This document shows, piece after piece, positions 3,846-64,000 of a DNA stretch of 64,000 nt. The DNA lies in NCBI RefSeq assembly GCF_001422445.1, contig NZ_LMNA01000027.1, forward strand, positions 248,001 to 312,000, written 5' to 3'. The position numbers were made by a program, and so were the translations under genes. The notes beneath the pieces are model-generated. The model did no database searches, was not told the DNA's origin, and worked only from the letters and a program-made list of their open reading frames with translations. This DNA is from Pseudorhodoferax sp. Leaf274 (GTDB taxonomy: Bacteria > Pseudomonadota > Gammaproteobacteria > Burkholderiales > Burkholderiaceae_C). Within the stretch, counting starts at the first letter, position 1, and each line of letters starts with the position of its first letter.

Positions 3846-5428
<1,583 letters not shown>

Positions 5429-5514
5429 ACACAAGAAACACACGGAGGACAGCCCACTGTAGCCAGGGAAGACACTTGGGGCAGGAACACCGGCGACAGC
5501 ACGGCCTGGACGCC

Positions 5515-5530
5515 TGGCACGGTCGCTGCA
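5515..5530 (+). promoter_or_regulatory. Candidate sigma-54 (-24/-12) promoter
   Basis: TGGCACG, a 4-bp gap, then CTGCA: one mismatch from the RpoN consensus TGGCACG-N4-TTGCW. It points at the thioesterase gene and sits beside a divergent sigma-54 activator gene. The GC of the -12 element implies transcription starting at about 5541-5542, on or next to the proposed ATG, so the message may be leaderless or the true start may be further in. Confidence 0.6.
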
Positions 5531-5541
5531 ATGCTGAAGGC

Positions 5542-5976
5542 ATGACTAGCACTCACCCCGCCTCCCCGTCTGCGCCCGACGCGATCAGCTACTTCGGCAT
5601 CGAGGTCCCCTTCATGCAGCACATCGGCCTGCGCCCGCTGCGCATGGACAACGACAGCTGCCACACCCTGTTGGCGATGCGGCCCGACCTCGTCAACAGC
5701 CGCGGAGACATCCACGGCGGCACGCTCATGAGCGCGTTCGACTTCACGCTGAGCGGCGCCGCGCGCGCCCACGACCCGCAGCGCCTGGGCGTCATCACGG
5801 TCGACATGACCACCCATTTCTACGAACCGGCGCGCACCGACCTCACCGTGATCGGCCGCTGCACGCGGCGCGGCAAGTCGCTGGCCTTCTGCGAGGGCGA
5901 GATCGTCGACGCGGCCGGCACCGTGGTGGCCGTCGCGCGCGCGGTCTTCAAGCTGGTGGCGCGGCAACCCGCCTGA
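5542..5976 (+). CDS. PaaI-family hotdog thioesterase
   Basis: A 144-residue single hotdog-fold domain. The HGG motif (DIHGGTLMSAFD, about residues 56-67) and TVDMTTHFYEPAR are the hallmarks of PaaI/YbgC-like acyl-CoA thioesterases, which hydrolyse CoA thioesters in the cytoplasm. The following carboxylase starts 38 bp downstream in the same direction, which suggests the two work on the same acyl-CoA or that this enzyme relieves a dead-end CoA ester. GAAGG lies too close to the ATG at 5542 to be a good ribosome-binding site. With the candidate sigma-54 promoter directly upstream, the exact start is uncertain; the next ATG in frame is at 5614. Confidence 0.85.
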   Translation: MTSTHPASPSAPDAISYFGIEVPFMQHIGLRPLRMDNDSCHTLLAMRPDLVNSRGDIHGGTLMSAFDFTLSGAARAHDPQRLGVITVDMTTHFYEPARTDLTVIGRCTRRGKSLAFCEGEIVDAAGTVVAVARAVFKLVARQPA

Positions 5977-6014
5977 CCGCCCCGCCCCGATACCACAACG
6001 ACACAGGAGACTCC

Positions 6015-9000: not shown

Positions 9001-9323
9001 TGGCCGGTGGCGGTTTCCGCTCGGCCAGCTTCACGGTCTCCTGGCCCACGGGCGAGTTCGGCCCCATGGGGCTGGAAGGCGCGATCACGCTGGGCTTCAA
9101 GAAGGAGCTGGAGGCCGTGCCCGACGGCCCCGAGCGCCGCGCGCTGTACGACAGCCTGGTGGCCAAGGCCTACGAGCGCGGCCACGCGATTTCGACCGCC
9201 GCGGCGGTGGAGATCGACGCCGTGATCGACCCGGCGCACACGCGCCAGTGGATCGCCAAGGGCATCGCCTCGGCCGCGGTGCGCGGCAAGCGTGCGCGCC
9301 GCGGCTTCGTGGACGCGTGGTGA
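6015..9323 (+). CDS. Single-chain biotin-dependent acyl-CoA carboxylase (BC-BCCP-CT fusion)
   Basis: A 1102-residue protein with all three parts of a biotin carboxylase in one chain. Biotin carboxylase occupies about 1-450 (LLIANRGEIALRV, the ATP-grasp loop GGGGGRGMR, and IEANPRLQVEHTVTE). The biotin carrier follows, with AMKM and biotinyl Lys at residue 533. A carboxyltransferase domain of beta plus alpha type occupies about 600-1102. A good AGGAG lies before the ATG. Length and layout resemble the long-chain acyl-CoA carboxylases (LCC) more than the usual two-subunit PCC/MCC enzymes. It consumes ATP and bicarbonate to carboxylate an acyl-CoA; the substrate cannot be read from sequence. The stop overlaps the next gene's GTG. 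Confidence 0.88.
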   Translation: MNKLLIANRGEIALRVQRAARDLGIATVAVYSQDDAASRHRLLADEAHALAGSGPAAYIDIAAMLAAAQATGCDAVHPGYGFLSERADFAQACADAGIRFVGPTVEQLALFGDKGRALALARSCEVPVMPATAGAATLEEITRFFDDQGGAGIVIKAVGGGGGRGMRVVNRRDDLAQAYARCRSEAATAFGVDALYAERLVARARHIEVQIAGDGEHVVALGERDCTLQRRFQKLVEIAPSPVLDAALRERITSAAKVLARRVQYQSLGTFEFLVEENAAGQQAGFVFIEANPRLQVEHTVTEQVTGVDLVALQLGLAAGRSLRALGLDPAAPPVPRGFAIQVRVNAEASDAQGQARPAHGRLERFELPAGPDVRVDTHGATGYAPPPAFDTLLAKLIVTSQSSHFADAVRRLQRSLAEFRIAGIATNLDLLRALVARPDFATQDVHTRHFEAIAPELLAAAAAIAEAQQARDAASGLAQAATPVAVAPAEQAAPAGLLAVRAPLSGRVVELSVAVGALVQPGQTVAVLDAMKMEHSVTATAGGRVLAVQLETGAQAAEGQILVLLEPVASDATAAQATEALDPHAIRPDLQRVLDRHAPLYDAARPEAVARRRARGQRTARENVADLVDADSFVEYGALALAAQASRRSQADLIANTPADGLITGIGSINGALVAKERAQSAVMAYDATVLAGTQGKRNHIKTDRLVEVALRDELPLVLLAEGGGGRPGDVDFPSVSGLYQPSFAAFADLSGQVPVVGVVSGRCFAGNAAFLGCCDVIIADRSANIGMAGPAMIEGGGLGIYKPEDVGPAHVQFANGVIDVLVDNEGEAVQAAKHYLSMFQGPVAQWSAPDALQLRQVVPENRLRVYDTRRAIEGIADTGSVLMLRGGFGLGIHTALARVEGRPVGIMANNPHHLGGAIDADAADKAARFMQLCDAHGLPIVSLIDTPGFMVGPEVEAKAQVRHVSRMFLVAAKLRVALLAVTLRKGYGLGAMAMAGGGFRSASFTVSWPTGEFGPMGLEGAITLGFKKELEAVPDGPERRALYDSLVAKAYERGHAISTAAAVEIDAVIDPAHTRQWIAKGIASAAVRGKRARRGFVDAW

Positions 9324-12891: not shown

Positions 12892-12957
12892 CGGCGCCAT
12901 GAGCGCTCCCGTGACACTGCGTCGCGCTTTGCAACATCCATGCGAGGAGGAGTGACC

Positions 12958-15130: not shown

Positions 15131-15222
15131 CATGGAACGTACGGATTGAGCGGCCTGGATCCCAGGATTTCAAACAGCATCCGGGTTTGAAGTGGGCGGG
15201 CAGGGTTATTGCTAGATGGACT

Positions 15223-15234
15223 AGGGTAAACCCT
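15223..15234. promoter_or_regulatory. AGGGTAAACCCT near-palindrome
   Basis: A 12-bp dyad-like element placed just upstream of the GGAG ribosome-binding site of the VWA gene. Related elements stand before the PQQ dehydrogenase (20643-20654) and marR (23474-23486). Role unknown. Confidence 0.35.
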
Positions 15235-15245
15235 TGGAGCCCGCC

Positions 15246-16286
15246 ATGATCCAGCCCCTGCACTTCCTTTGGCCGCAACTGCTGTGGCTGCTCTGGGCCG
15301 TCCCGCTGTTGGTGCTGGGCTACGTCTGGCTGCTGCGCAGCCGCCGCCAGCCGGTGCTGCGCTACGCGCACGTGGCCCTGGTGCGCCAGGCCATGCTGCC
15401 CGGCGGGGCCTGGCGGCGCCACCTGCCACCGGCCCTGCTGCTGGCCGCACTGGCTATGCTGCTGTTCGCGTCGGCCCGCCCGCAGGCCGCGCTGCCGCTG
15501 CCCACCGACCAGGCCACCGTGATGCTGGCCGTGGACGTGTCGCTGAGCATGCAGGCCGACGACATCAAGCCGAGCCGGCTCGACGCCGCGCGCGAAGCCG
15601 CCAAGGCCTTCGTGCGCCAGCTGCCGGCCGGTGCACGCGTGGGCGTGGTCAGCTTCGCGGGCACGGCACAGGTGGTGCAGCCGCCGACCTACAGCCGCGA
15701 GAAGCTGCTCGCCGCCATCGACGCCCTGCACCTGCAGCACGGCACGGCCATGGGCAGCGGCATCGTGGCAGCGCTGTCCGAGCTGTTCCCCAACGAGGCT
15801 TTGGACCTGGGCGAGGCCGCCTTCCTGCCGCTGACGGCCCATGCGCCGCGCGCCACACCCAAGCCGGTGCCGGCGCGCCGGGAGACCGACGCCGAGCCGG
15901 CCGCCACCATCGTGCTGCTGACGGACGGGCGCAGCAACTTCGGCGTGCACCCGTTGCAGGCCGCCGACATGGCGGCCGCGCGCGGCGTGCGCATCCATGC
16001 CGTGGGCCTGGGCACGGTGGAAGCACCCGGCGCCGACCAGGACGACTGGTCCATGGTGCTGCAGCTGGACGAGGCCATGCTGCGCGAGGTGACGGGCATC
16101 GCCCATGGCGACTACTTCCGCGCCGGCAGCGCCGAGAGCCTGCTGCAGGTCTACGAGAAGATGGGCGCCCGGCTGCAGGTGCAGATGCGCGAGACCGAAC
16201 TCTCCGGCCCGCTCGCGCTGGGCGCGCTGCTGCTGATGGCCGGTGCGGCGCTGCTGTCGCTGCTGTGGTGCCAAAGGGTGGCGTGA
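15246..16286 (+). CDS. BatA-like VWA-domain membrane protein
   Basis: 346 residues. Two N-terminal membrane helices (about 10-30 and 58-76), a von Willebrand A domain with an intact MIDAS motif DVSLS near residue 99 and the later LLTDGRSNFG, and a C-terminal membrane helix (about 320-340). This is the Aerotolerance/BatA layout in which the VWA domain faces the periplasm. No BatB, BatD or MoxR ATPase gene lies beside it, so it is separated from its usual partners. The insert between about 185 and 220, rich in Ala/Pro/Arg, is longer than usual. Start: the ATG at 15246 has GGAG upstream; a TTG 12 bp earlier is less likely. Confidence 0.8.
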   Translation: MIQPLHFLWPQLLWLLWAVPLLVLGYVWLLRSRRQPVLRYAHVALVRQAMLPGGAWRRHLPPALLLAALAMLLFASARPQAALPLPTDQATVMLAVDVSLSMQADDIKPSRLDAAREAAKAFVRQLPAGARVGVVSFAGTAQVVQPPTYSREKLLAAIDALHLQHGTAMGSGIVAALSELFPNEALDLGEAAFLPLTAHAPRATPKPVPARRETDAEPAATIVLLTDGRSNFGVHPLQAADMAAARGVRIHAVGLGTVEAPGADQDDWSMVLQLDEAMLREVTGIAHGDYFRAGSAESLLQVYEKMGARLQVQMRETELSGPLALGALLLMAGAALLSLLWCQRVA

Positions 16287-16383
16287 AAGGTCGCCAGCGC
16301 GACGAAGCAAGGGATGCCGCTATGCACGGCGGCCGGGTGCTTTTGATAGATTGCCCGGTCTTCCACGCCACACGCACATCCCC

Positions 16384-17520
16384 ATGGCCCTGATCCAGTA
16401 CCTGACCCAGATCCAGTTCGACTTCGGCGCCATCCGCCTGCTGTCCGAAGAGTGCAAGCGCATCGGCATCACGCGCCCGCTGGTCGTGACCGACGCCGGC
16501 GTGCGCGCCGCCGGCATCCTGCAGAAGGCGCTGGACGCGCTGGGCGACCTGCCCGTCACCGTGTTCGACGAGACGCCCTCCAACCCGACGGAGGCATCGG
16601 TGCGCGCCGCGGTCGCGCTGTACCGGCAGGGCCGCTGCGACGGCCTGATCGCCGTGGGCGGCGGCTCGTCCATCGACTGCGCCAAGGGCGTGGCCATCGC
16701 CGCCACGCACGAGGGCCCGCTCAAGCACTACGCCACCATCGAGGGCGGTTCGCCACGCATCACCGAGGCGGCGGCGCCCCTGATCGCCGTGCCCACCACC
16801 AGCGGCACCGGCAGCGAAGTGGCACGCGGCGCCATCATCATCGTGGACGACCACCGCAAGCTGGGTTTCCACAGCTGGTCGCTGATGCCCAAGGCCGCCA
16901 TCTGCGACCCCGAACTCACGCTGGGCCTGCCGCCCAAGCTGACGGCTGCCACCGGCATGGACGCGATCGCGCACTGCATGGAGACCTTCATGTCGGCCGC
17001 CTTCAACCCGCCGGCCGACGGCATCGCGCTGGACGGGCTGGAGCGCGCCTGGGGCCACATCGAGCGTGCCACCACCGACGGCGGCGACCGCGAAGCGCGG
17101 CTCAACCTCATGAGCGCCTCGATGCAGGGCGCCATGGCGTTCCAGAAGGGGCTGGGCTGCGTGCACAGCCTGTCGCACAGCCTGGGCGGGGTCGACCCGC
17201 GGCTGCACCACGGCACGCTCAACGCGCTGTTCCTGCCGTCCGTGGTGGCCTTCAATGCGGGTGCGGAATCGGTGCAGAAGGATGCCCGCCTGCAGCGCAT
17301 GGCGCAGGCCATGCACCTGGACGGGCCTGGCGACATCGGCGAGGCGATCCGCGACATGAACGCGCGCCTGGGCTTGCCCAAGGGCCTGGCGGAGGTGGGC
17401 GTGACCTCCGCCCTGTTCGAGCAGATCATCGACGGCGCGATGGCCGACCACTGCCACAAGACCAACCCGCGCCTGGCCACGCGCGAGGACTACCGCGCGA
17501 TGCTGGACAGCGCGATGTAG
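16384..17520 (+). CDS. Iron-containing (group III) alcohol dehydrogenase
   Basis: 378 residues with an NAD-binding N-terminal half (GGGSSIDCAKG near residue 97 and PTTSGTGSEVARG) and an all-helical metal domain. The Fe/Zn ligands expected for this family are visible: Asp193, His197, His261 and His275, in DAIAHCMETF, GCVHSLSHSLGG and LHHGTL. The enzyme reversibly oxidises an alcohol or reduces an aldehyde in the cytoplasm. The family includes 1,3-propanediol, 4-hydroxybutyrate and maleylacetate-type enzymes, and the sequence alone does not decide among them. It converges on the DUF6172 gene. Confidence 0.87.
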   Translation: MALIQYLTQIQFDFGAIRLLSEECKRIGITRPLVVTDAGVRAAGILQKALDALGDLPVTVFDETPSNPTEASVRAAVALYRQGRCDGLIAVGGGSSIDCAKGVAIAATHEGPLKHYATIEGGSPRITEAAAPLIAVPTTSGTGSEVARGAIIIVDDHRKLGFHSWSLMPKAAICDPELTLGLPPKLTAATGMDAIAHCMETFMSAAFNPPADGIALDGLERAWGHIERATTDGGDREARLNLMSASMQGAMAFQKGLGCVHSLSHSLGGVDPRLHHGTLNALFLPSVVAFNAGAESVQKDARLQRMAQAMHLDGPGDIGEAIRDMNARLGLPKGLAEVGVTSALFEQIIDGAMADHCHKTNPRLATREDYRAMLDSAM

Positions 17521-45487: not shown

Positions 45488-46531
45488 TCAGACAGCGTGG
45501 GCCGACTCCGGCGAGGATACGGGAGCGTGCGCCAGCGCCGCGACCTCGGCAGGCGCAAGCGCTTTCATGCGGTGGTCGCTCCAGACCTGGCGCCAGCGCC
45601 GCGCGCCAGGCAGGCCGTGGCGCAGGCCCATCATGTGGCGCGCGATCGCGTGCCAGTGGGTGCCGTGCGCGCGCGCCTCGCGTTCCATGTAGCGCAGCAT
45701 CTCTTCTTCGACCCATTCGCGCGTGCGCGCAGGCTCGTCGGGCAGGCCGAAGAAGGCGCTGTCCCACTCGGCCAGCCACCAGGGGTTGTGGTAGGCCTCC
45801 CGGCCCAGCATGGCGCCGTCCAGCATGGCGAGTTGCTCACCCACCTGCGCCGTGGTCTTGAGGCCGCCGTTGATGACGATGGCGAGCGCCGGGAAGTCGC
45901 GCTTGAGCTGGTGCACGAGTTCGTAGCGCAGCGGCGGGATCTCGCGGTTCTCCTTGGGAGACAGGCCCTTGAGCCAGGCATTGCGCGCGTGCACGATGAA
46001 GGTGCGGCAGCCGGCTTCGCTGACGGTGCCGACGAAGTCCCGCACGAAGCCGTAGTCCTCGCCGCGGTCGATACCGACGCGGTGCTTGACGGTCACCGGC
46101 ACGCTGACGGCATCGACCATCGCCTTCACGCCATCGGCCACCAGCTGCGGCTCGGCCATCAGGCAGGCCCCGAAGGCACCGCGCTGCACGCGTTCGGAAG
46201 GGCAGCCGCAGTTGAGGTTGATCTCGTCGTAGCCCCACTGCTCGCCCAAGCGGGCGCAGTGCGCCAGATCGGCCGGTTCGCTGCCACCCAGCTGCAAGGC
46301 AACCGGGTGCTCGCTCGCGTCCAACCGCAGATGCCGCGCCACATCGCCATGCAACAGCGCCCCTGTCGTCACCATCTCCGTGTACAGGCGCGCGCGCCGC
46401 GACAGCAGGCGGTGGAAGTAGCGGCAATGCCGGTCGGTCCAGTCCAGCATCGGGGCAACAGAAATGTGCAGCTCCGAGGGAAAACCCCTTTTCTCTGTGA
46501 AAACGCTGTCTGCGCTTGATGTTGGATTCAA
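45488..46531 (-). CDS. dusA: tRNA-dihydrouridine synthase A, 5' end supplied by the prophage
   Basis: About 347 residues. The DusA core is intact: ISVAPMLDWTDRHCRYFHRL, CGCPSERVQRGAFGACLM with the catalytic Cys, VTVKHRVGID and VINGGLKTTAQ. It uses FMN and NADPH to reduce U20 in tRNA. From about position 46490 upstream the DNA becomes AT-rich and the residues stop resembling host DusA, as expected when a phage inserts in the dusA start. No ATG stands before the core; a TTG at 46529-46531 is the most likely start, but GTG codons further upstream are open. Expression is probably driven by a phage-borne promoter. Confidence 0.85.
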   Translation of the reverse strand: MNPTSSADSVFTEKRGFPSELHISVAPMLDWTDRHCRYFHRLLSRRARLYTEMVTTGALLHGDVARHLRLDASEHPVALQLGGSEPADLAHCARLGEQWGYDEINLNCGCPSERVQRGAFGACLMAEPQLVADGVKAMVDAVSVPVTVKHRVGIDRGEDYGFVRDFVGTVSEAGCRTFIVHARNAWLKGLSPKENREIPPLRYELVHQLKRDFPALAIVINGGLKTTAQVGEQLAMLDGAMLGREAYHNPWWLAEWDSAFFGLPDEPARTREWVEEEMLRYMEREARAHGTHWHAIARHMMGLRHGLPGARRWRQVWSDHRMKALAPAEVAALAHAPVSSPESAHAV

Positions 46532-46580
46532 CTTGGTTCGCCTGAATTTGCCGTGATTTTTGGGGTCGAGTGCTACATTT

Positions 46581-46607
46581 GGTGCAACACAAATTTCATG
46601 TTGCACC
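46581..46607. promoter_or_regulatory. Perfect inverted repeat before the integrase start
   Basis: GGTGCAACA and TGTTGCACC, 9 bp each with a 9-bp spacer, ending 5 bp before the integrase ATG at 46613. No T tract. It could be an operator controlling int, an arm-type integrase site, or part of the divergent dusA leader. Confidence 0.5.
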
Positions 46608-46612
46608 GACCC

Positions 46613-47665
46613 ATGGGAACAATTATCCGTCGCCGCCGGAAAGACGGCTCGATCGGGCACACCGCCCAGATCCGCATCAAGAAGGACGGCAAGGTGGTGC
46701 ACACCGAAACCCAGACGTTCGACCGGGAATCGCCGGCGCGGCTTTGGATGGCCCAGCGCGAGGAGGCCCTCGCCAAGCCTGGGGCGCTAGTCAAGAAGGA
46801 AGATCCGACGCTGGCCGGCGTGATCAACACCTACCTGGCCGACAAGCTCAAGCCGCACGGCGTGACGAAAGACCAGGTACTGCGCACGATCAAGAACTCG
46901 TGGCTCGGCCAGCTGCGCTGCTCGGAGATCAAGAGCACCACGATCATCCGCTACCTGCAGGAACTGGAATCGCAGCCGCAGACCAGGGGCAACTACCTCT
47001 CGCACCTGTCGGCAGTGTTCAAGGTGGCCAGGCCCGCCTGGGGCTACCCGCTGGATGTGGCCGCCGTGGAAGACGCGCGCGTGGTCGCTGACAAGCTGGG
47101 CCTGATCGCCCGCTCGCGCTCGCGCACGCGCCGGCCCACCCTGGCCGAGCTGGAAAAGCTCTTAGCTCACTACTCCGTGTACGAGCGAAAGCGGTCCGAC
47201 TCGATCCCGATGACACAACTGATCCTTTTCAGCATTTTCTCGACGCGCCGGCAGGAAGAAACATGTCGGATTCTCGCCGAGGACGTAAACGAGCAGCAAA
47301 GCCAGGTGATTGTGCGCGACATGAAAAACCCCGGCGAGAAGATCGGCAATGACGTGCACACGACATTAACTCCAGAGGCGCTGCAGCTGATCAAGGCGCG
47401 CGGCGTGACGAAGGGAAGGATCTGGCCCTACAACGCGGAGTCTGTCAGCTCATCGTTTACCCGAGCGTGCAAGTTTTTAGGGATAGAGGATCTGCATTTC
47501 CATGATCTTCGACATGAAGGAGTCAGCCGCCTCTTTGAAATGGGATGGACCATACCGCATGTTGCTATGGTTTCAGGCCATCGCTCATGGAAAGGGCTCC
47601 AGCGATACACCCATGTCAAACAAACCGGCGACAAGTATGAAGGCTGGCAATCCCGGCTCAAATAA
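46613..47665 (+). CDS. int: Phage tyrosine-recombinase integrase
   Basis: 350 residues. A basic N-terminal part (GTIIRRRRKDGSIGHTAQIR), a SAM-like core-binding domain (about 60-150), and a catalytic domain with Arg (FSTRRQEETCR), HDLRHEGVSRLFEMG (His-x-x-Arg), SGHRSWKGLQ and the nucleophilic Tyr in QRYTH. It carries out insertion into, and excision from, dusA. The ATG at 46613 is chosen: 20 earlier codons run through the inverted repeat. The 3' third of the gene is visibly richer in AT than the rest, which marks the shift into the cargo region. Confidence 0.92.
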   Translation: MGTIIRRRRKDGSIGHTAQIRIKKDGKVVHTETQTFDRESPARLWMAQREEALAKPGALVKKEDPTLAGVINTYLADKLKPHGVTKDQVLRTIKNSWLGQLRCSEIKSTTIIRYLQELESQPQTRGNYLSHLSAVFKVARPAWGYPLDVAAVEDARVVADKLGLIARSRSRTRRPTLAELEKLLAHYSVYERKRSDSIPMTQLILFSIFSTRRQEETCRILAEDVNEQQSQVIVRDMKNPGEKIGNDVHTTLTPEALQLIKARGVTKGRIWPYNAESVSSSFTRACKFLGIEDLHFHDLRHEGVSRLFEMGWTIPHVAMVSGHRSWKGLQRYTHVKQTGDKYEGWQSRLK

Positions 47666-47702
47666 TCACTTGAGATCCAATAGCACTACCAGTTCAACCC
47701 AC

Positions 47703-49151
47703 ATGAAATCTCTTTTTCCAGGTTATTACCCACTATCAGACGAGCAATATAAGCTGCTCTGGAAAGAAGCAATCATTGTTCCAGACACAAATGTACTCTT
47801 AAATCTCTATCGTTATCCGGAGCGCGCCAGAGAGGATTTCTTGAATGCACTAAATTTACTCCGAGATCGCCTTTGGATCCCCCATCAAGTGGCCCTCGAG
47901 TTTCAACGTAACCGTCTAAAAGTGATCGAGGCAGCTTGGAGCCTGTCAGGAAATGAACAGGCAAAGTCAAGCGAACAACTGAGCAGTATTGTTGCAGGTT
48001 TTCAGAAACTTGAAATTGAAAAGCGCTCGAAATCTATCGATGTTGACAAAATACTCTCGGACCTCCGAGTTGCACATGCCCGCTTGGTCGATTCAATAGT
48101 GGAAATACATCGCAGTCAACTGGAGGTTTCTTCCTCCGATCCAATAAGGGATCGAATTGACGATCTACTGTACGGATCGATAGGCGAAGGCCCTAAGACG
48201 CAGCAGGAGTTAGACAGCCTTACGGAGGGCGGAGAGGATCGGTACAGCAAGGAAATTCCACCTGGCTATCACGATGCTGATAAAGAGAAAAACCCTAAGT
48301 TCGCGGAGTTCATCCACAACCATTTGGTTTATAAAGCCAAGTTCGGCGATTTGATTCTTTGGCGGCAAATAATTAATCACGCAAAAGGCCGGAACATCAA
48401 GCACCTGATTATCGTCACAGGAGACCAGAAGCCGGATTGGTGGTGGCGAGAGCATGGAAAGACTATGGGCCCACATCAAGAATTGGTGTCCGAAATTCTG
48501 AGGAACACCCCCGTTGAACTATTCTGGATGTATTCGTCCGACCAGTTCCTCGCTAATGCGCACAAGCAGTTGAATGCGCCCATTGCCGATCAATCGGTTC
48601 AGCAGGTTCAGCAGGTTCAGCTGGTAGAGTCCGAGCACGACAGAATCGAAGCTGCAAATCGTCTATTTGAGAATAGTGCCACCTTAACGAGTTATTTGGG
48701 ACTTGACGATATAGAGCCCGTTCGATATCCAATGAGCCAAATAACGAGAATAGTACAAAATTGGCTATCGTCTCAGTTTGGCGAAGTGATAGAAATTAGC
48801 AAGGGAATTCAAAAGAGACTGCTAGCCCACAGAGGCGACGGACTTGAGACGTTTGATGTCATCCGACTATCTTCGCTTAATACTGGCGTATTAATGGAGA
48901 AAATTAAGTACAGTAATTGGGAGCAGGACGAAATAATACTTGATGACGAGGATTTCAAGCGAACTTTGATTGTCGTTCTTGGCCAAGAACCTCAAAACGC
49001 TCTTTTCTCTAACAATAGAGGGAGACGGTTTCTCAACCATTTGCAAGAATTAGTCAATAATTCGAAGATTGAGACGGTCCTAATCGGAACGATAGTTAAG
49101 CAAGAGTTCGAATTGATCCTTCGAATTCACCGAGATACGCAGCGCCCCTAG
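47703..49151 (+). CDS. PIN-like domain protein (DUF4935/PIN_8 type), likely defence cargo
   Basis: 482 residues in strikingly AT-rich DNA. The N-terminal 260 or so residues form a PIN-like nuclease fold with acidic residues at Asp28 (VPDTNVLLNLYRY), Glu66 (PHQVALEFQRNR), Asp216 (FGDLILWRQI) and Asp241 (TGDQKPDWWW), as in the DUF4935 family. A long helical insert (about 80-200) splits the fold. The C-terminal 200 residues show no motif I recognise and may sense or regulate. The start at 47703 fits homology; earlier ATGs (47613, 47637) overlap int. A lone base-composition outlier beside int suggests an acquired phage-defence or lysogenic conversion gene. Confidence 0.75.
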   Translation: MKSLFPGYYPLSDEQYKLLWKEAIIVPDTNVLLNLYRYPERAREDFLNALNLLRDRLWIPHQVALEFQRNRLKVIEAAWSLSGNEQAKSSEQLSSIVAGFQKLEIEKRSKSIDVDKILSDLRVAHARLVDSIVEIHRSQLEVSSSDPIRDRIDDLLYGSIGEGPKTQQELDSLTEGGEDRYSKEIPPGYHDADKEKNPKFAEFIHNHLVYKAKFGDLILWRQIINHAKGRNIKHLIIVTGDQKPDWWWREHGKTMGPHQELVSEILRNTPVELFWMYSSDQFLANAHKQLNAPIADQSVQQVQQVQLVESEHDRIEAANRLFENSATLTSYLGLDDIEPVRYPMSQITRIVQNWLSSQFGEVIEISKGIQKRLLAHRGDGLETFDVIRLSSLNTGVLMEKIKYSNWEQDEIILDDEDFKRTLIVVLGQEPQNALFSNNRGRRFLNHLQELVNNSKIETVLIGTIVKQEFELILRIHRDTQRP

Positions 49152-52844: not shown

Positions 52845-53447
52845 CTATTCGGATGGCCAGGCGACAGCGGCAACGGACGACTCGGTTGCGTCCTCGGCAA
52901 AGATCTGCGCTCGCAGACCGCGCGACACCTGATGCACTTGGTCCGCGTGGTTCGCCAGCGCGACCAGCATGCCCACCATCTGCGCGGCGTCGAGCTCCAG
53001 GACGCTGTTGTCCTGGCAGGTCCATGCGATGCTGAACGGCGCCCCGATGGCCAGCGCGGCCTGCGCGGCCGATGTGGCGCCCGTGATCCGCAGCGCGCTC
53101 TCCGCATCGCTGTCCACCATGCGCCCCAGGTACTCAAAGCCGGCTTTCTCCACCCTGTCGCGCTCGGCCTTGATTTCGACCCACTTCGCCGCCTGGAGGA
53201 CTTGCAGGGCAGAGCCGCCTGGCGGCGTCCACAGCACCCATTCGCATGTCGCGAAGTCCAGCACATGCTGCGGACTCGGCCGCGGCCCCAGCTCGTGCAG
53301 CTCATCCGCGATGAAGACCGAGCGCGTCGGGTCGACAGCGTCGGGCGTCTCGATGACCGTACCGCCGCGCTGGGGCGCCGGAAGCGCAAGGCTGCGCCCG
53401 GCAAAGTAGATCTCACCGTCAGCGCTGTACTCGATCCAATACTTCAT
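52845..53447 (-). CDS. DUF4376 phage tail-fibre-associated protein
   Basis: 200 residues. N-terminal beta-rich half (MKYWIEYSADGEIYFAGR, a short part seen at the end of tail-fibre operons) and a C-terminal DUF4376 domain (AAKWVEIKAERDRVEKAGF to LVALANHADQVHQ). It follows the J-like gene with an ATGA overlap. Members are thought to help tail-fibre assembly or be small tip proteins; this is context-based. Confidence 0.78.
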   Translation of the reverse strand: MKYWIEYSADGEIYFAGRSLALPAPQRGGTVIETPDAVDPTRSVFIADELHELGPRPSPQHVLDFATCEWVLWTPPGGSALQVLQAAKWVEIKAERDRVEKAGFEYLGRMVDSDAESALRITGATSAAQAALAIGAPFSIAWTCQDNSVLELDAAQMVGMLVALANHADQVHQVSRGLRAQIFAEDATESSVAAVAWPSE

Positions 53448-56400
53448 CGGTGGCTCGCAAGAATGGTCAGGCGCTGGTCCATGTGCGTCACCCACTGCTG
53501 GCGGTGCATGGTCTGCAGCAGGTAAGTGTTGGCGCCGATTACGGGATTGAAGTCCACCAGAGTGATTTCGGTGTCCCGCACGTTGCTCTGGTCTTCTTCG
53601 AACAGCTTCTTGCCCATCCACCGCTTGATCTCTTGACCGGTTGTCTGGTTGAACAGACGGAACTCGGGTATCTGGGTAATTGCTGTTGTGGGGACTTCCA
53701 TGTGCGAGATGAAGGCGACGACACCGTTGCCACCGGATTTCAGGGTCACGGCCAGCGAGAGCATCGTGATCCAGTTGTCCGCGTTGTCGCCGCCGTAGTA
53801 GTTGCTGGAGCCGCTGCGCACCAGCGCAAGCGTCGTGGCCCCTTGCCCCGCGATGTTGAGCGTATTGACGGCGTTGATCGCATCCGCGGTGAAAGACCCA
53901 TTCAGAAGCATCGCACCCGAGTCGAGGTTGTACTCGAGCCGGTTGCCCACCCCGTCGTCGGCACCCATGTATATGCCGCTGGGACTGATCTGAACGCGCC
54001 GGCCGTTCTTCAGCATGTGGATGGACTTGTTGTCCAGATCCACGCTCATCATTCCGTCAGCCGACACCAGACGACCGTAAACCACGATACCCAGGTTGGG
54101 AACAATCGAAGACAGGCTGCCGACAGAGATTTTCTCGGCAGTGACGGCCAGCGCCTTGAGGTGCCGCGTCTCGATCTCCAGGCTTCGGATGTGGTACGCG
54201 TAGATCTGGTCCGCATCGAGCATCCGCGCCTTGAGCACGCCGTCAAGGAACATGTTTCCGGTGAAGCCGAAGCTGGCGACGCCGCCAATGGAACCGAACA
54301 CCACTGGGTACTTGATCTCGCCGCCGGCGCCTTCCATCGCCCAGGCGAAGCGGTCGGACAGCACGACGAAGTTGCTTTGCGTGCCGTCGTTGTTCTGGAT
54401 GAAGCCGCTGACCTTGCCGTCCACGGTCAAGCGCACGCCGTACTTGGCGAACAGCTGGCCATCCGCCTGGGCGCGCACGGAAGCCTCAGTGGTCACGCTG
54501 GCCGCAACCTGGCCCACTTGAGCCGCCAACGTCTCGCGCGCCAGCGCCTCGGCCGCATCGCCATTGGCACGCGCCGTGCGCTCGGTCTGGATCGCCGCCA
54601 GCGTGCCAGCGTCGGGGGCCCCGGTGATGTAGCTGGTGATTGGCTTGCGGCCGACCTCCACCTTTGCACGCGCAAAGCCAAGCACGCTGCCTGAGGCATT
54701 GATCCAGTCAACACTGAACCGGAGAAACGCAGCGCCCGCAGGGGCTTGCGCCTCGATAGCGGTGGCTTGACGCACGGCAGCAGTGAAGTTGGAGAAATCG
54801 GTCGGGCCATTCCAGGGCCCAACGACCCCTGAAATGTCTGCGTGCGCGGCGTTGTAGAACTGGATGCGCAAGCGCCATTGGCCGCCCGCCGCGTGCATCT
54901 GCACCTCCATCGCGGCGGCGTACCACAACCCCTGCCCAGCCTGCGCTTCAGAGGTGAAGAGAATGCCGCTGGCTGGATGCGTCACGCTCTGGGTAATGCG
55001 GCCGACCACGCTGTCGTAAGCAACAAACGAACTGACGTTCCCGCCCCACCCGTCCATGCCGTACTCGAAGCCGCCGTTGTAGAGCACATTGGCGCGCACG
55101 TAGCCTGTGCTCGACGCCGAGATGTTCTCGATTTGCTGGGCCAGCTGCTCGTCGCCCTCGGTGATGAGCTGCGTGACCGCCTCGATCGCGGTGCCGCGCG
55201 CAGCCGCCTCGGCCAGGATCTTTTGGTCCGTGTCTTGCCCCAGCTCGACCAGATCCTGCACGACTTCGTCCAAGCCCTCCTGCAGTTCCTGGATCGCCTC
55301 GGAGATATCGGGCAGCACGGTGACCAGAACGGTTCCCGGCGCCCCGCGGTTGCCGCCCAGATCGATCGCGGCCACCCAGTAGCGGTAGTTCCCAGCAGCG
55401 GACACGGTTTGGCTGAAGGACAGGGCATCGAGCGTGCTCAACAGCTGCGCGCCGGCATAGACGTCACCCAGGCGCACCTCGTAGCCACGCAGAGGCTGCG
55501 TGGCCGACACAGCGTCCCATGCCAGCTCGACAAGCGATTGCCACGCGAGCCCTGTCACCACAGGCTGGCCTGGCGGCACGATCGAGATGGAGGTGAACAC
55601 TGGCGCGGACGTGTCCCCGGCAGAGTTGACGTGCACCGCGTAGAACATCAGCTGGCCGGCCTGCAACCATCCGAGGTTGCAGGTGTTGGCCTTGCCCTCG
55701 AAGACGGGCGATGCGGTCTCCCACGAACCGCCGGCCAGGCCCAAGCGGATCCGCGTTGCCGCATAGTCGATGGAGTCGATGTCTTGCGGCGTGTTCCAGC
55801 GCAGCACCACACCGTTGGTTTCCACGGCGGCGGTCAGGCCCAGTACGCCACCGACCAGCACGCTCGGGTCGGTGAAGATCACCGACGCGACGGTGCCCAT
55901 GCGTCCCAGACCGTCGAAGGGGCGGACCTCGACGGACCACGTCTGGTCGGAAGGCACGCGCCAGGCCAACCGGGTGCCGTACACGTTGCTGTCAATCAGC
56001 ACCAGGGGCTGGCCAGCAGGCGCGGCCCACACCTGGGCATGGTCGTAGTTGCCGGTCACATCCCAGGTTGCCGACAGCTCATGCTCCCAGCCGGCTCCTA
56101 CCTTCACGCGGGACCGAGTGATCTGCAGGTTGCTCGCGACAGGCAGGTTGGCGGTCAAGGACGAGCCGTTCGGCGCCGGAACGTAGTTCCCATTCAGCAC
56201 ATAGTCCCAGAACTCGGGGCCCTCGGGCACGCAGGAAATGCGCGCACCCTTCAGGTCGGCCTCGGGCTCCATGCTCACCACTCGAACGCGGTAGCCGGGC
56301 GTTGGCTTGAAGTCGTAGCACCACAGCGTGTCGTGCGCTGGATCGTCTTCCGTCGCGCCGGGCAGCGGGAGGCCTGAAGGCCACGGGTCGGCCAGGGTCA

Positions 56401-58525
56401 CCTGGTCCCCGGCGATGGACAGCGCCTCGACCTGGAACACCCGGTAGTCGCGGTAGCCCGGAAGCCGCAAGCCGATGAAGGCCTGTGCCAGGGGCGGCAC
56501 TGCCTCATCCAACTGCAGGACCACCTTGCCGGCCACCCGCTGCGCCGAGACGAGCCGCCCGCCGAATCCCCACTGCGTGAGGTCGTGGCTGATGGACAGC
56601 AACGACAGGCGCCGGTAGTCCAGGTGCTCGATGTCTGCCGTGTAGCCGATCGTCTTGAACTGGTACAGGCTCTGGGCGAGGTGGTAGCGCGCCATGATGG
56701 CGGCGTGGGCCTCGCTGGTGACGCCCTCACCCGTGATGCGGGCCGGGTTGAGCATCGTGGTCACGCCGGGCGCGGACACGCGCAGCGTCTGCGTCTCCCA
56801 GTTCCGCTCGCGGTCCAGGTACTGGTACTCGATGCCGTCGGCGGCGTTGCTCAGGCTGTAGGAGACCTCGAACGACGCCTTCAGCATGTTGGCCATGTTG
56901 ACCACGCCCGACAGCGGCTGGCCGCTGGAGACGAAGACCGCCGTCGGCCGGCTGCCATCCGTCCAGCTGAACTCGCCCATGCCGGCCAGCGCCACCTCCT
57001 GGCAGAACTGGCCGAGCGACACGGCATCGGTCACCCACTTGTCGTAGGTGTAGCCGTTCGCCGTGCAGTGGAGCATGAAGGCCTTCAGGCCCTCGATGTC
57101 GATCTGTTCGTCCGGCAGACCGAAGCCGAACTGCAGCTCGCCATTGGCGTACACACCGCGCATGGTCTGCAGCAGGATGGCGCCGGGGTTGGACAGCCCG
57201 TTGTCCCGCGCTGTGGCCGTGACCCAGGCCGACCCGTTCCAGATGGGCATCGGACGGGCGCGGTAGGTGGCGCGCACGGTGTCCAGGCTGCCGGACAGCT
57301 GGCCCGACGCGCGGATCTTGATGCCGATGCGCCCCCAGCCGCTGTAGTCGGTTTGGTCCGGCTGGATGCTTTTGAGGACGTTCCAGCCGATCTTGCACTG
57401 GTCCTTGCCCTCGCCCTCGTCCCAGGTCGGCGGGCCCAGGCGCACGCGAACGTCGTACTGGCCCTGCGCGACCTGCAGCGTGAACGTGCGGCGCAGCACG
57501 TCGGCCGTGCTGTTGGTCAGCGTGGGCGAAGATGCCGGCACCCAGTTGTCCGAGCCCACGGGGCGTGTCTCGATGAACAGCTGCACGCTGTTGGGCAGCG
57601 TGTTGCCCTTGACGCCCACGTCGTACAGCTGGCCCTCGAAGTCCAGCTGCAGCGCCACCACGTCGGGCGAGCTGGTGCGCACGACCCAAGGCCCGTTCTT
57701 CTCCAACTCGGCGCCCGAGATCGTATCGGCGTTGCTGTACAGCGGAATGTCCTGGCTGGCCATGCCCGGAAAGCCGCTGTAGAACAGGCTGACGTCCGAG
57801 TAGCCGCTGAACGGCGTGTCGCCCACGGCGAGGTCGGCCGCGCTGTGCACGTTGATGCCGCCCAGCAGGATCAGGCTCAGGTACTGGTCGTCGCCCTCGA
57901 ACCAGGTGTAAGCCGCGCTGGCCACGTCAGGCGTGACGCGCATCTCGCCCCAGAGCGTCGGGATCGGCTGATTGGGGCGCGCGCTGTTGCGCTGGCCGCT
58001 CAGGCTGTAGACGGCACGCGCCGCCTCGGCCGATTGAGCCTTTGGAACCTTTGGGGCGAGCACTTTGTTGATCAGCACCGACCCGGCCACAAACGCACCG
58101 ACCCCCACCATGGTGACACTCAGGCCTGTCGTCGCCGCAATTGCCGTGGCCGTCGTGCCCCAGGCGGCCAAGCCGGCACCCAGCGTGAAGTAGGACAGCA
58201 CAGCCAGCGCGACGATGGCAACAACCTGCTTCCCGCCCGTCGCGCGGCAGGCTATCAACATCCCGTGCTTTGGGAAGGTGGTGCGCCACATGGCCTGCGG
58301 CACGGCGGCGCCCGCGATGCTCACCGACCAGGCGCCGGACTGGATGCCTGGCACGTGGCGCTCCAGGAAGGCCGCCAGCGACTCACCAGGCCGCAGATCC
58401 GCCGGGACGTTACGCTGGCCTTCCAGCGTCGCAAAGTTCGGCGTGACGACCAGCCGACCGCCGGCGTCGATCAGTTCGGCAGGCACGCCGTTGACTGCGG
58501 CAAGCTCAGCGCGGTTCACTTCCAT
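53444..58525 (-). CDS. J-like central tail fibre/host specificity protein with I-like N-terminus
   Basis: 1693 residues. Residues 1-95 and a hydrophobic region with two or three helices (about 98-158, VVAIVALAVLSYFTLGAG) resemble the lambda I protein. The J-type hub domains follow (NSARPNQPIPTLWGEMRVTP near 185, on to about 900). Then come fibronectin-III-like repeats (about 980-1060), a coiled coil (about 1065-1138), a sandwich domain resembling a carbohydrate-binding module (NVLYNGGFEYGMDGWGG, about 1142-1290), and a DUF1983-type segment ending in a unique tip. It forms the tail tip and determines receptor choice. It overlaps the K-like gene by 10 bp. Confidence 0.85.
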   Translation of the reverse strand: MEVNRAELAAVNGVPAELIDAGGRLVVTPNFATLEGQRNVPADLRPGESLAAFLERHVPGIQSGAWSVSIAGAAVPQAMWRTTFPKHGMLIACRATGGKQVVAIVALAVLSYFTLGAGLAAWGTTATAIAATTGLSVTMVGVGAFVAGSVLINKVLAPKVPKAQSAEAARAVYSLSGQRNSARPNQPIPTLWGEMRVTPDVASAAYTWFEGDDQYLSLILLGGINVHSAADLAVGDTPFSGYSDVSLFYSGFPGMASQDIPLYSNADTISGAELEKNGPWVVRTSSPDVVALQLDFEGQLYDVGVKGNTLPNSVQLFIETRPVGSDNWVPASSPTLTNSTADVLRRTFTLQVAQGQYDVRVRLGPPTWDEGEGKDQCKIGWNVLKSIQPDQTDYSGWGRIGIKIRASGQLSGSLDTVRATYRARPMPIWNGSAWVTATARDNGLSNPGAILLQTMRGVYANGELQFGFGLPDEQIDIEGLKAFMLHCTANGYTYDKWVTDAVSLGQFCQEVALAGMGEFSWTDGSRPTAVFVSSGQPLSGVVNMANMLKASFEVSYSLSNAADGIEYQYLDRERNWETQTLRVSAPGVTTMLNPARITGEGVTSEAHAAIMARYHLAQSLYQFKTIGYTADIEHLDYRRLSLLSISHDLTQWGFGGRLVSAQRVAGKVVLQLDEAVPPLAQAFIGLRLPGYRDYRVFQVEALSIAGDQVTLADPWPSGLPLPGATEDDPAHDTLWCYDFKPTPGYRVRVVSMEPEADLKGARISCVPEGPEFWDYVLNGNYVPAPNGSSLTANLPVASNLQITRSRVKVGAGWEHELSATWDVTGNYDHAQVWAAPAGQPLVLIDSNVYGTRLAWRVPSDQTWSVEVRPFDGLGRMGTVASVIFTDPSVLVGGVLGLTAAVETNGVVLRWNTPQDIDSIDYAATRIRLGLAGGSWETASPVFEGKANTCNLGWLQAGQLMFYAVHVNSAGDTSAPVFTSISIVPPGQPVVTGLAWQSLVELAWDAVSATQPLRGYEVRLGDVYAGAQLLSTLDALSFSQTVSAAGNYRYWVAAIDLGGNRGAPGTVLVTVLPDISEAIQELQEGLDEVVQDLVELGQDTDQKILAEAAARGTAIEAVTQLITEGDEQLAQQIENISASSTGYVRANVLYNGGFEYGMDGWGGNVSSFVAYDSVVGRITQSVTHPASGILFTSEAQAGQGLWYAAAMEVQMHAAGGQWRLRIQFYNAAHADISGVVGPWNGPTDFSNFTAAVRQATAIEAQAPAGAAFLRFSVDWINASGSVLGFARAKVEVGRKPITSYITGAPDAGTLAAIQTERTARANGDAAEALARETLAAQVGQVAASVTTEASVRAQADGQLFAKYGVRLTVDGKVSGFIQNNDGTQSNFVVLSDRFAWAMEGAGGEIKYPVVFGSIGGVASFGFTGNMFLDGVLKARMLDADQIYAYHIRSLEIETRHLKALAVTAEKISVGSLSSIVPNLGIVVYGRLVSADGMMSVDLDNKSIHMLKNGRRVQISPSGIYMGADDGVGNRLEYNLDSGAMLLNGSFTADAINAVNTLNIAGQGATTLALVRSGSSNYYGGDNADNWITMLSLAVTLKSGGNGVVAFISHMEVPTTAITQIPEFRLFNQTTGQEIKRWMGKKLFEEDQSNVRDTEITLVDFNPVIGANTYLLQTMHRQQWVTHMDQRLTILASHR

Positions 58526-58911
58526 CGGTAGTACCCCATGACCGTCAGGCCCATGGCCGGCAGGTCTTTGATCTTGTGCAGCGAGCTGCCGCCCTGCATC
58601 CATGCCGCGGCGTGCAGGACACAGGGCGCGTAGCCCGTAAAAAAGTAGGTTCCGACGTGGCCAGCCATCGTCTTGCCGCCCTCGCGCATGAGCACCACGT
58701 CGCCATCCACCGGCTCGGCCACCGGCAAGGCCAACTCGGCACAGTAGGCCGCCAGCGCGGCGTCCTGCGCGGCGCTGTCCAGAGGCCGCGGGCGCTTGCC
58801 GGCGAACACCACCTCGCGGCCAAACAACTCGCGCTGCACCAGCATCACGAGGTCGGCGCAGTCCATCCGCCGAGGGCAATACGGGATGCCAAGGAACCGA
58901 TCGGTGTGCAC
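58516..58911 (-). CDS. NlpC/P60 tail-tip assembly protein (lambda K-like)
   Basis: 131 residues with NlpC/P60 order: catalytic Cys18 in RRMDCADLV, His in AGHVGTYFF near residue 84 and a third polar residue in LHAAAW. In lambda-like phages K is a tail-tip protein with a peptidase domain that helps cell-wall passage. Position between L/M-like and J-like genes agrees. Lambda K also has an N-terminal JAB domain, which is missing here. Confidence 0.85.
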   Translation of the reverse strand: MHTDRFLGIPYCPRRMDCADLVMLVQRELFGREVVFAGKRPRPLDSAAQDAALAAYCAELALPVAEPVDGDVVLMREGGKTMAGHVGTYFFTGYAPCVLHAAAWMQGGSSLHKIKDLPAMGLTVMGYYRWK

Positions 58912-62439: not shown

Positions 62440-62781
62440 TCATCTGCGTACCTCCACCGGCGCACCGAACATGCGCGCGATCATTTCCAGGGATGCTGCG
62501 GACGCCTCAGCTGGCTTTTCTTGCGGCGGCTCGTCGTAGTACCGCAGGAACTTGTCCAGCGGCTCCTTGCCGCCGTGGCTGGCATGGCGCACCCAATCAG
62601 ACCGACCGAAAAGGAACTCCAGCCGATGGCCAAGGTTGAGGGTGCCAAAGCGGGCCCGGTACTCGGCCCACACCATCACCTCTTCGGCGCTCAGGCGCTC
62701 ACGGGCTTCTGCGAGGGTTCGGCCGCCGATTCCGTTGAGGACGAGTTCGCAGAGGAGCTCTTCCGCGGCCGAGAGTTTTTT
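62440..62781 (-). CDS. GT extension of the tail assembly chaperone, made by -1 frameshift
   Basis: After the slip site at 62775-62781 the -1 frame reads without a stop for about 114 codons (KLSAAEELLCELVLNGIGG to MFGAPVEVRR), ending 22 bp before the tape measure start. Its beginning is internal to the G-like gene. A start at the in-frame ATG 62676 is possible but has no ribosome-binding site. The G-GT fusion is the form that guides tube polymerisation on the tape measure. Confidence 0.82.
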   Translation of the reverse strand, partial: KKLSAAEELLCELVLNGIGGRTLAEARERLSAEEVMVWAEYRARFGTLNLGHRLEFLFGRSDWVRHASHGGKEPLDKFLRYYDEPPQEKPAEASAASLEMIARMFGAPVEVRR

Positions 62782-63107
62782 GCTTCACCTGCCATGGCTT
62801 GGTTGATGGCCGTGAGCAGCTTGAAGCCCAGCTGCGAGTTCAGCGCGCGCGCGTTGTCGGTGCCCAGCGGCACCAGCTTGCCGGCCTCCTCGACCAGGAT
62901 CATCTGGCCGATGGCGGCTGCGCGCTTGTCGGGCGAGTCCTCCAGCTGCAGGTCCATCGCCATGCCGAAGGCCATTGGCTTGACGTGCACGTCAATGGAG
63001 TAGTCCTCGCCGTCGTCGCCCCGCCAGTCGATGGTCTTCATGACCGGCGCGAGGTCGCGGATCGCTCCGGCCGACTTCATGCCGGCCAGGCCTCTGAGTT
63101 TTTTCAT
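62691..63107 (-). CDS. Tail assembly chaperone (lambda G-like)
   Basis: 138 residues. MKKLRGLAGMKSAGAIRD at the start and a C-terminus rich in Ser, Lys and Ala. It lies between the tail-protein gene and the tape measure. The A-AAA-AAC motif at codons for Lys-Asn near residue 110 allows a -1 shift to the GT frame; without the shift the chain ends at 62691. The Shine-Dalgarno (GAAAGG) belongs to the cassette duplicated at 52.78 kb. Confidence 0.82.
   Translation of the reverse strand: MKKLRGLAGMKSAGAIRDLAPVMKTIDWRGDDGEDYSIDVHVKPMAFGMAMDLQLEDSPDKRAAAIGQMILVEEAGKLVPLGTDNARALNSQLGFKLLTAINQAMAGEAKNSRPRKSSSANSSSTESAAEPSQKPVSA
62775..62781 (-). promoter_or_regulatory. A-AAA-AAC slippery heptamer for -1 frameshifting
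   Basis: Read leftward, GCA AAA AAC in the zero frame gives X-XXY-YYZ register exactly. The zero-frame stop is 80 bp later, and the -1 frame is open to 62440. It is followed by a GC-rich segment that may pair as a stimulator. Confidence 0.8.
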
Positions 63108-63127
63108 GGGAGCCTTTCAGAAACGAA

Positions 63128-63150
63128 AAAGCCGCCTCGGTGGGCGGCTT
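63128..63150 (-). terminator. Terminator hairpin, copy B, between the GH26-domain gene and the chaperone genes
   Basis: Leftward: AAGCCGCC, 6-base loop, GGCGGCTTTTTC. It lies 32 bp past the stop at 63182 and 21 bp before the G-like start. Partial termination here would make more of the upstream tail protein than of chaperone, as needed for a major tube protein. Identical core to copy A. Confidence 0.78.
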
Positions 63151-63181
63151 TGATGGGCGATCAGCCCGGCAAGGGGCCGGA

Positions 63182-64000
63182 TCAGACGTAGACGCCCGTT
63201 AGCCGATCAGCCGTCATTGCGTAGGGGCTGATCGCCATCGCTGAGAAGCTGGCCTTCGCTGCCCCGCCGTCTGAAGCCTGGGGTCCGTAGGGCGCCGGCC
63301 AAAGCGCTGCCAGTGCGGACTCGTAGAACGTCGTTGCCAGGTAGCGGCCGGTCTTCTGGTCCCAGATCCCGCTCAACGTGGCGCAGTACTGGTAGCCCAA
63401 CTCCGGGATGCATAAAGGCTTGTTGTGGGTGGAGGCCAAGACCTTAATACTGGACCAGCAGCCCGCAGGCCTATTGTTCTGGCCAAGCAGCGACACCGAG
63501 GCGTCATTGCGGTTGTCATAGGTGTCCATCGAAATGATGTCCACGTACGAGGAGCCAGGCCAGAACAGGTTTGGGTCGACGCCTGTGCTGCCATCAACGT
63601 TCCAGCAGTAGAGGACATGCGTGAGGCCTTTGACATCGCGCAGGTAGTTCACGAAGTCGCGCCACAGCAGGATGAAGTCGGATGCACGATCCACCCCATT
63701 CCACCAAAACCAGTCGCCGGTCGCCTCATGCCACCAGCGAAGGATCACGGGGATCTTGCGCCCCTTGCTGTCCACCAGGCTCGCCAGGAAGTCGGCAAGG
63801 CGGTCCAGGTATGCCAAGTATTCGGCCCGCTTCGATCCGCCCGGCTTGATCACGCTCAACGGGGAGCCGGTCCGATCCTTGAACGTCCCCTCGCCGGTGG
63901 CCGTCGTCGGGCTGACCGTGCCATTGCGCGACAGGTTGCCCGTGTCAGGGTTCCCGGGATGGTTGTGGAGCGTGAGGATTGCCCCTTGCTCGTAGGCCTC
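63182..64000 (-). CDS. GH26-type glycosidase-domain protein in the tail operon, 5' end outside window
   Basis: 272 residues are visible, reading in from the right edge without a stop. The domain matches glycoside hydrolase family 26 (beta-mannanase type): PVILRWWHEATGDWFWW holds the acid/base Glu (codon 63725-63727), YVDIISMDTYD is a core strand, and KPLCIPELGYQ holds the nucleophile Glu (codon 63401-63403). The two Glu lie 108 residues apart, as I recall for Cellvibrio Man26A. The N-terminal part (LTLHNHPGNPDTG) also fits the fold. In lambda order this is the place of major tail protein V or of a gene just beside it. It may be a separate enzyme or a domain on a tail protein; the missing 5' end decides. 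Confidence 0.8.
   Translation of the reverse strand, partial: EAYEQGAILTLHNHPGNPDTGNLSRNGTVSPTTATGEGTFKDRTGSPLSVIKPGGSKRAEYLAYLDRLADFLASLVDSKGRKIPVILRWWHEATGDWFWWNGVDRASDFILLWRDFVNYLRDVKGLTHVLYCWNVDGSTGVDPNLFWPGSSYVDIISMDTYDNRNDASVSLLGQNNRPAGCWSSIKVLASTHNKPLCIPELGYQYCATLSGIWDQKTGRYLATTFYESALAALWPAPYGPQASDGGAAKASFSAMAISPYAMTADRLTGVYV

Follow-up and report, generated by a model that had tools for sequence, protein, structure and literature searches.

A GH26 gene in the tail module of a prophage

The window is the whole stretch of DNA that was analysed, 64,000 nucleotides long (G000:C27:248001-312000), and coordinates above 64000 are given as window-equivalents on the same contig. It holds part of a prophage that is a lambda-like temperate siphophage in a soil-type bacterium. 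Read from right to left, the prophage genes encode a portal, a Clp-like protease, the capsid, smaller head-tail proteins (some of them identified), a PF11367 protein of the tail terminator type, the tail tube, a 614-aa fibre-like protein, a glycoside hydrolase of family GH26, a tail assembly chaperone, a 79-aa ORF, the tape measure protein and, further on, the central tail fibre J (Table 1). Downstream of J, as far as the lysis genes for spanin and holin, no additional fibre gene could be recognised. The GH26 ORF is open at the window end, and its ATG start was located by reading on into the contig. It lies on the tail-gene strand, tightly packed with the tail genes, and its start overlaps the stop of the 614-aa gene by 4 bases. 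An earlier sequence-only reading had placed a GH26 domain inside the tail module, away from J and directly upstream of the chaperone, the second-chaperone position and the tape measure, and this arrangement was confirmed; one of the two forms which it had considered for the domain, a free gene, agrees with an ORF that has its own start and stop.

Table 1. Features of the tail module (positions above 64000 are window-equivalents)
Feature	Position	Strand	Remarks
Central tail fibre J	53444..58531	-	phrog_31; start codon uncertain
Tape measure protein, 896 aa	59727..62417	-	
79-aa ORF at second-chaperone position	62440..62679	-	without family match (Pfam, PHROGs)
Tail assembly chaperone	62691..63107	-	PF16459
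Terminator-like hairpin, GH26/chaperone gap	63128..63151	-	weak statistics: fold z -1.87
Exchanged cassette, in-window part	63121..64000	-	continues to about 65683; homology to L036 and L038 lost between
GH26 glycoside hydrolase gene, 374 aa	63182..64000, 306 bases more to 64306	-	PF02156; = L003:10182-11306
Fibre-like gene, 614 aa	64303-66147; conserved N-terminus 65683-66147	-	between tube and GH26
Tail tube gene, complete, 290 aa	66160-67032	-	PF16460, 179.9 bits

The region is also present in IMG/VR, as a viral contig of 42,941 bases whose offset places it between about window 46613 and the end of the contig (window-equivalent 89553) and in which the GH26 stretch is 100% identical; it presumably derives from the same genome and hence is not independent. 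The prophage integrase adjoins a dihydrouridine synthase gene (PF01207) within window 45488-49151, and the same interval includes an adjoining PIN_8 gene (PF18476, 203 bits), a region in which PADLOC found no match.

Pfam assigned residues 16-267 of the GH26 protein to PF02156 (Glyco_hydro_26) with an E-value of 5.3e-29 and 102 bits against a cut-off of 20.2, a score that rules out a chance match. PF02156 is the sole Pfam match in the protein, which has no tube domain and no anchor domain, and PHROGs gave no match to it at E <= 0.01. A PDB search with a profile of three relatives (three rows) retrieved 36 distinct sequences at E <= 0.01, mostly named mannanase, GH26 or endoglucanase H, the top match being a mannan endo-1,4-beta-mannosidase (4.2e-36). 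The AlphaFold model of the protein was poor (pLDDT 55, pTM 0.67), and a Foldseek search with it returned, as PDB matches 1-33, mannanases, other GH26 proteins or an engineered derivative, some of which we take to be GH26 members. Residues E194 (WWHEATGDWFWW) and E302 (PELGYQ), 108 residues apart, correspond by alignment to CjMan26C's HE and TE glutamates and occupy in that alignment the acid/base and nucleophile positions of the family, respectively. Both are kept in two close relatives (about 60% and 43% identical) as well as in G507 and L028, and in L030 the second position is an alignment gap. Comparison with a 61% identical paralogue pointed to purifying selection (dN 0.31, dS 1.21, dN/dS about 0.26), so that an inactive relic, given also the retained pair, is not favoured. 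To judge from its sequence, the phage gene product is a genuine GH26 that has kept both catalytic residues, and both the family and the spacing of the glutamates stand as the sequence-only reading had proposed them. The GH26 mannanases CjMan26A, CjMan26C and that of Bacillus sp. JAMB-750 share with it the profile, the fold-search match and the two catalytic glutamates, whereas identity in the fold-search alignments is 17-28%, and here the gene belongs to a phage and its product shows no signal peptide by a simple hydropathy check.

A block exchanged between the tube and chaperone genes

DNA homology to three related phage contigs (L036, L037 and L038) extends through the tube gene and 441-464 bases into the fibre-like gene, and breaks at L035 positions 10349 (L036), 10328 (L037) and 10326 (L038), which correspond to fibre residues 147-155. 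It comes back at L035 12916 (L036) and 12913 (L038), 10-13 bp before the chaperone ATG at 12926. As the L037 contig ends first, only the first break is visible there, and the second could be followed in two of the three relatives; the breakpoints are thus nearly shared, the first among all three and the second in both relatives where it could be followed. The stretch from the variable part of the fibre gene to the end of the GH26 gene therefore differs as a block among related phages. One exception was found within it, a segment of 46 bp round the hairpin (L035 12876-12920) that is 87% identical to a second, different place in L036.

The exchanged content consists here of the remainder of the fibre-like gene plus GH26. 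In L036 it comprises a fibre-like part and a PF12831 (FAD_oxidored) gene (179 bits) that starts 4 bases past the fibre stop. The same contig carries, at 15151-16890, a second copy of the fibre N-terminus in the gap that separates the second chaperone ORF from the tape measure. This copy is identical in L104, and its first ~429 bp show 83% identity to the first copy; PF22337 (Phage_fiber_rpt; 28.9 bits, cut-off 27) follows just after this N-terminus, and the protein also contains a PF13472 (SGNH) domain (33.2 bits, cut-off 32.9) whose relative in PHROGs, phrog_6102, is filed under moron/auxiliary. L037 has a fibre-like part with Big_5 and a PF13472 gene (39.6 bits) that begins on the final base of the fibre stop codon, and L038 has a single 1144-aa protein with fn3 and the SGNH-like motifs GQS, GQGD and DGVHY, which gave no Pfam match. 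In all four phages, one of them (L037) cut by its contig end, the exchanged part or the second copy of it thus encodes a putative enzyme: GH26 here, an FAD oxidoreductase and an SGNH protein in L036, an SGNH protein in L037 and, by motifs alone, an SGNH-like fusion in L038. At the expected chaperone place of L037, after the SGNH gene, lies a 252-aa phrog_8440 gene (5609-6364).

The 614-aa protein itself combines a conserved N-terminus with a variable C-terminal part and, on sequence grounds, appears fibre-like. It has no Pfam match above cut-off, and its structure model was useless (pLDDT 32.5). Residues 109-147 weakly match three Burkholderia phages (E 3e-3 to 8e-2), two of the three proteins being annotated as tail fibre; residues 153-352 and 351-614 were without a match among phage records at E <= 5, and the sole match of the last part in IMG/VR was the prophage's own contig. 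Residues 262-350 weakly match the C-terminal part of the 'major tail protein' family phrog_1407 (E 0.0012), so that a tie to tube decorations is possible and the protein would fit as one. The 155-aa N-terminus gave a single match in the PDB (E 1.7) and nothing useful. It occurs in IMG/VR, by a scan that depends on short peptide patterns, in four contigs, those of this phage, L036, L037 and L038. Among 399 genomes of the family, 12 match it at E <= 0.01 and two contain the whole domain, the host itself and G200, which is identical to L036 over 16,749 bases. In L105 (G078), a further phage region, two large genes at 5224-9153, fibre-like by eye, lie amid apparent head-tail connector genes, and one of them matches residues 77-154 of the fibre N-terminus (E 6.4e-11).

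The tube protein found 42 loci in IMG/VR, some of them near-duplicates, and in 35 of these the spacing between tube stop and tape measure was measurable (the other seven include L037). It is 626-789 bp in 27 of the 35, with room for two chaperone genes, and 967-1347 bp in four; L039 has 2958 bp, its chaperones being separated from the tape measure by other genes, and the remaining values are 3743 bp in this phage, 4150 bp in L038 and 7078 bp in L036. The tube protein also matches 77 phage records, and the chaperone directly follows the tube in all four that were read, PAJU2, PseuP_224, Vibrio phage P2 and SOVA965. These share with this prophage the order of tube (PF16460), chaperone and tape measure, whereas here a 3 kb fibre-plus-enzyme stretch lies between the two.

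Relatives of the GH26 protein and its probable substrate

The closest relative of the phage GH26 is the 61% identical paralogue, which is encoded in the same genome (G000:C25:294015-300144; L005 5012-11144) next to a tRNA-Pro gene and outside any recognised phage or exopolysaccharide cluster. It is followed on the same strand by genes for orphan proteins of 545 and 1051 aa; the larger has a weak tape-measure match (E 1.3e-5) and was found, at E <= 1e-10, in its own genome alone among 100 searched. A phage origin of this paralogue was considered and rejected, as no phage gene was recognised alongside it by eye. The second-closest relative (43%) belongs to Variovorax boronicumulans DE0202, where its neighbours are Poly_export, two flippase-type, glycosyltransferase, pyruvyl transferase and OpgC_C genes, and the three proteins form a clade with support 100/99 (17 rows). 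In G507, from the same order, a 35% identical relative with a hydrophobic N-terminus is flanked on both sides by glycosyltransferase genes.

Some member of PF02156 is present in 7 of 200 genomes of the family, and the subgroup of the phage protein is rarer, with 3 of 399 genomes of the order (E <= 1e-10) and 1 of 369 of the class (E <= 1e-20), the host included in each count. Such a gene is rare among phage records, in line with the sequence-only reading, which had called a free gene of this kind unusual: tblastn against 50,697 of them gave five matches at E <= 1e-3, all UNVERIFIED gut contigs, and two pattern-based scans of IMG/VR returned only the prophage's own contig. The five 'Bacteriophage sp.' entries (MT837087, MT836656, MT836699, MT835960 and MT837933) are probably mislabelled, because their neighbouring genes look bacterial by eye.

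The host genome has two Poly_export loci, one of them with a PS_pyruv_trans gene about 18 kb away on the same contig, and neither of its GH26 genes lies in this Poly_export/pyruvyl transferase cluster. Taken together, the GH26 clade, the polysaccharide genes around its cellular relatives and the Poly_export genes of the host would make a bacterial exopolysaccharide a more likely target of the phage enzyme than plant mannan.

Function of the cassette

We consider it probable that the cassette is an adsorption or depolymerase module, acting on the virion or in the lysate, which this lambda-like temperate siphophage encodes at an atypical position. The conserved N-terminus would hold the fibre-like protein on the virion, and the cassette would be made late, together with the tail. 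Since GH26 lacks a signal peptide, it would reach its substrate either while attached to the fibre-like protein of the virion or after release into the lysate. There it may cleave beta-mannosidic or beta-glucosidic linkages in exopolysaccharide, whether that of the host or that of competing strains, which would open the way to the cell. As the protein carries no anchor domain, its association with the virion is a guess, one that its coupling to, and exchange with, the fibre-like gene would favour.

The same coupling and exchange weigh against a free enzyme that stays off the virion, accumulates in the cytoplasm and at lysis clears exopolysaccharide from the cell's surroundings and frees the progeny, and so does the fusion of an enzyme to the conserved N-terminus in the second copy of L036 and perhaps in L038. 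In keeping with such an enzyme, GH26 has neither a signal peptide nor a further domain and its gene sits among morphogenesis genes, and the enzymes adjoining the fibre in L036 and L037 are likewise separate proteins; on balance we hold it to be possible, though somewhat unlikely. A fusion of GH26 to the tube protein, or its replacement by GH26, so that the enzyme would cover the tail, was what the sequence-only reading had envisaged, and it could draw on the adjacency of GH26 to tail genes and on the weak phrog_1407 match of the 614-aa neighbour. Gene fusion is refuted by the complete PF16460 gene, which stands separately two genes upstream, and by a GH26 gene with its own start and stop and PF02156 alone, and this explanation as a whole is hardly credible. 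Of the observations which that reading had set against itself, the separate tube gene is present, while the GH26 match did not fail and both glutamates are kept in relatives.

We regard as very unlikely a moron or auxiliary metabolic gene that is expressed in the lysogen and remodels its own exopolysaccharide or feeds on plant or soil mannan. Cellular GH26 relatives do lie in or beside polysaccharide genes, phrog_6102 is filed in this category, and a terminator-like hairpin follows GH26. As a terminator the hairpin is suggestive only: its fold was matched by 11 of 200 shuffles, and the scanned 5.5 kb contain five terminator-like sites where shuffled sequence gives 3.3 +/- 2.2; two of the others lie 5' of the tube gene. 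The same 5.5 kb, scanned for the sigma-70-like type of promoter alone, gave no site 5' of GH26 and a single one inside the tape measure gene, which would speak against separate expression, as would the tight packing of GH26 and its place on the tail-gene strand; a role in nutrition is at odds with the lack of a signal peptide. Viral GH26 genes are counted among auxiliary genes of soil viromes in PMC6460857 and PMC10127799.

Virion depolymerase tailspikes join a conserved N-terminus to an exchangeable enzyme part, and those known are mostly trimeric beta-helices encoded near tail tip genes. The cassette is like them in its conserved N-terminus and exchangeable part, whereas here GH26 is a separate gene upstream of the chaperones, and the N-terminus that would anchor the cassette belongs to the fibre-like protein and not to GH26. 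Depolymerases are usually sought near the tail tip genes, and a fibre-plus-enzyme slot between tube and chaperones could be missed or filed as a carbon-cycling auxiliary metabolic gene. Should the cassette serve in adsorption, some of what counts as viral 'carbohydrate metabolism' in soils may be machinery for entry. The cassette also gives a handle on the exopolysaccharide of Comamonadaceae. Lactococcal 936 phages carry, according to PMC6669499, carbohydrate-binding tail decorations, of which the MTP TpeX is a frameshift extension of the tube protein. The prophage resembles them in that variable carbohydrate-active modules are tied to the tail tube gene, and differs in that theirs is a frameshifted tube extension that binds, whereas here there are separate genes and a hydrolase. 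Among the matches listed from open-licence PMC papers, none was to a GH26 in a phage tail or to a gene for a fibre or an enzyme lying between those for tube and chaperones, and a GH26 or an exchangeable fibre-plus-enzyme cassette at this place is apparently new.

A broader reading, which we think quite unlikely, is that the slot between tube and chaperones is a dedicated exchange site and that the lineage uses it to present exchangeable enzymes of sugar modification (a hydrolase, an SGNH esterase-like protein, an FAD oxidoreductase) along the tail tube or close to it, through a fibre N-terminus bound to an extension at the C-terminus of the tube protein. Measured from the start of the match to the stop, the tube protein has 287-291 aa in the four slot carriers and 85-185 aa in the other 38 loci, some of which are cut or near-duplicates. 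The link between tube length and slot is not strict, since PseuP_224 lacks the slot and yet has a tube protein of 241 aa.
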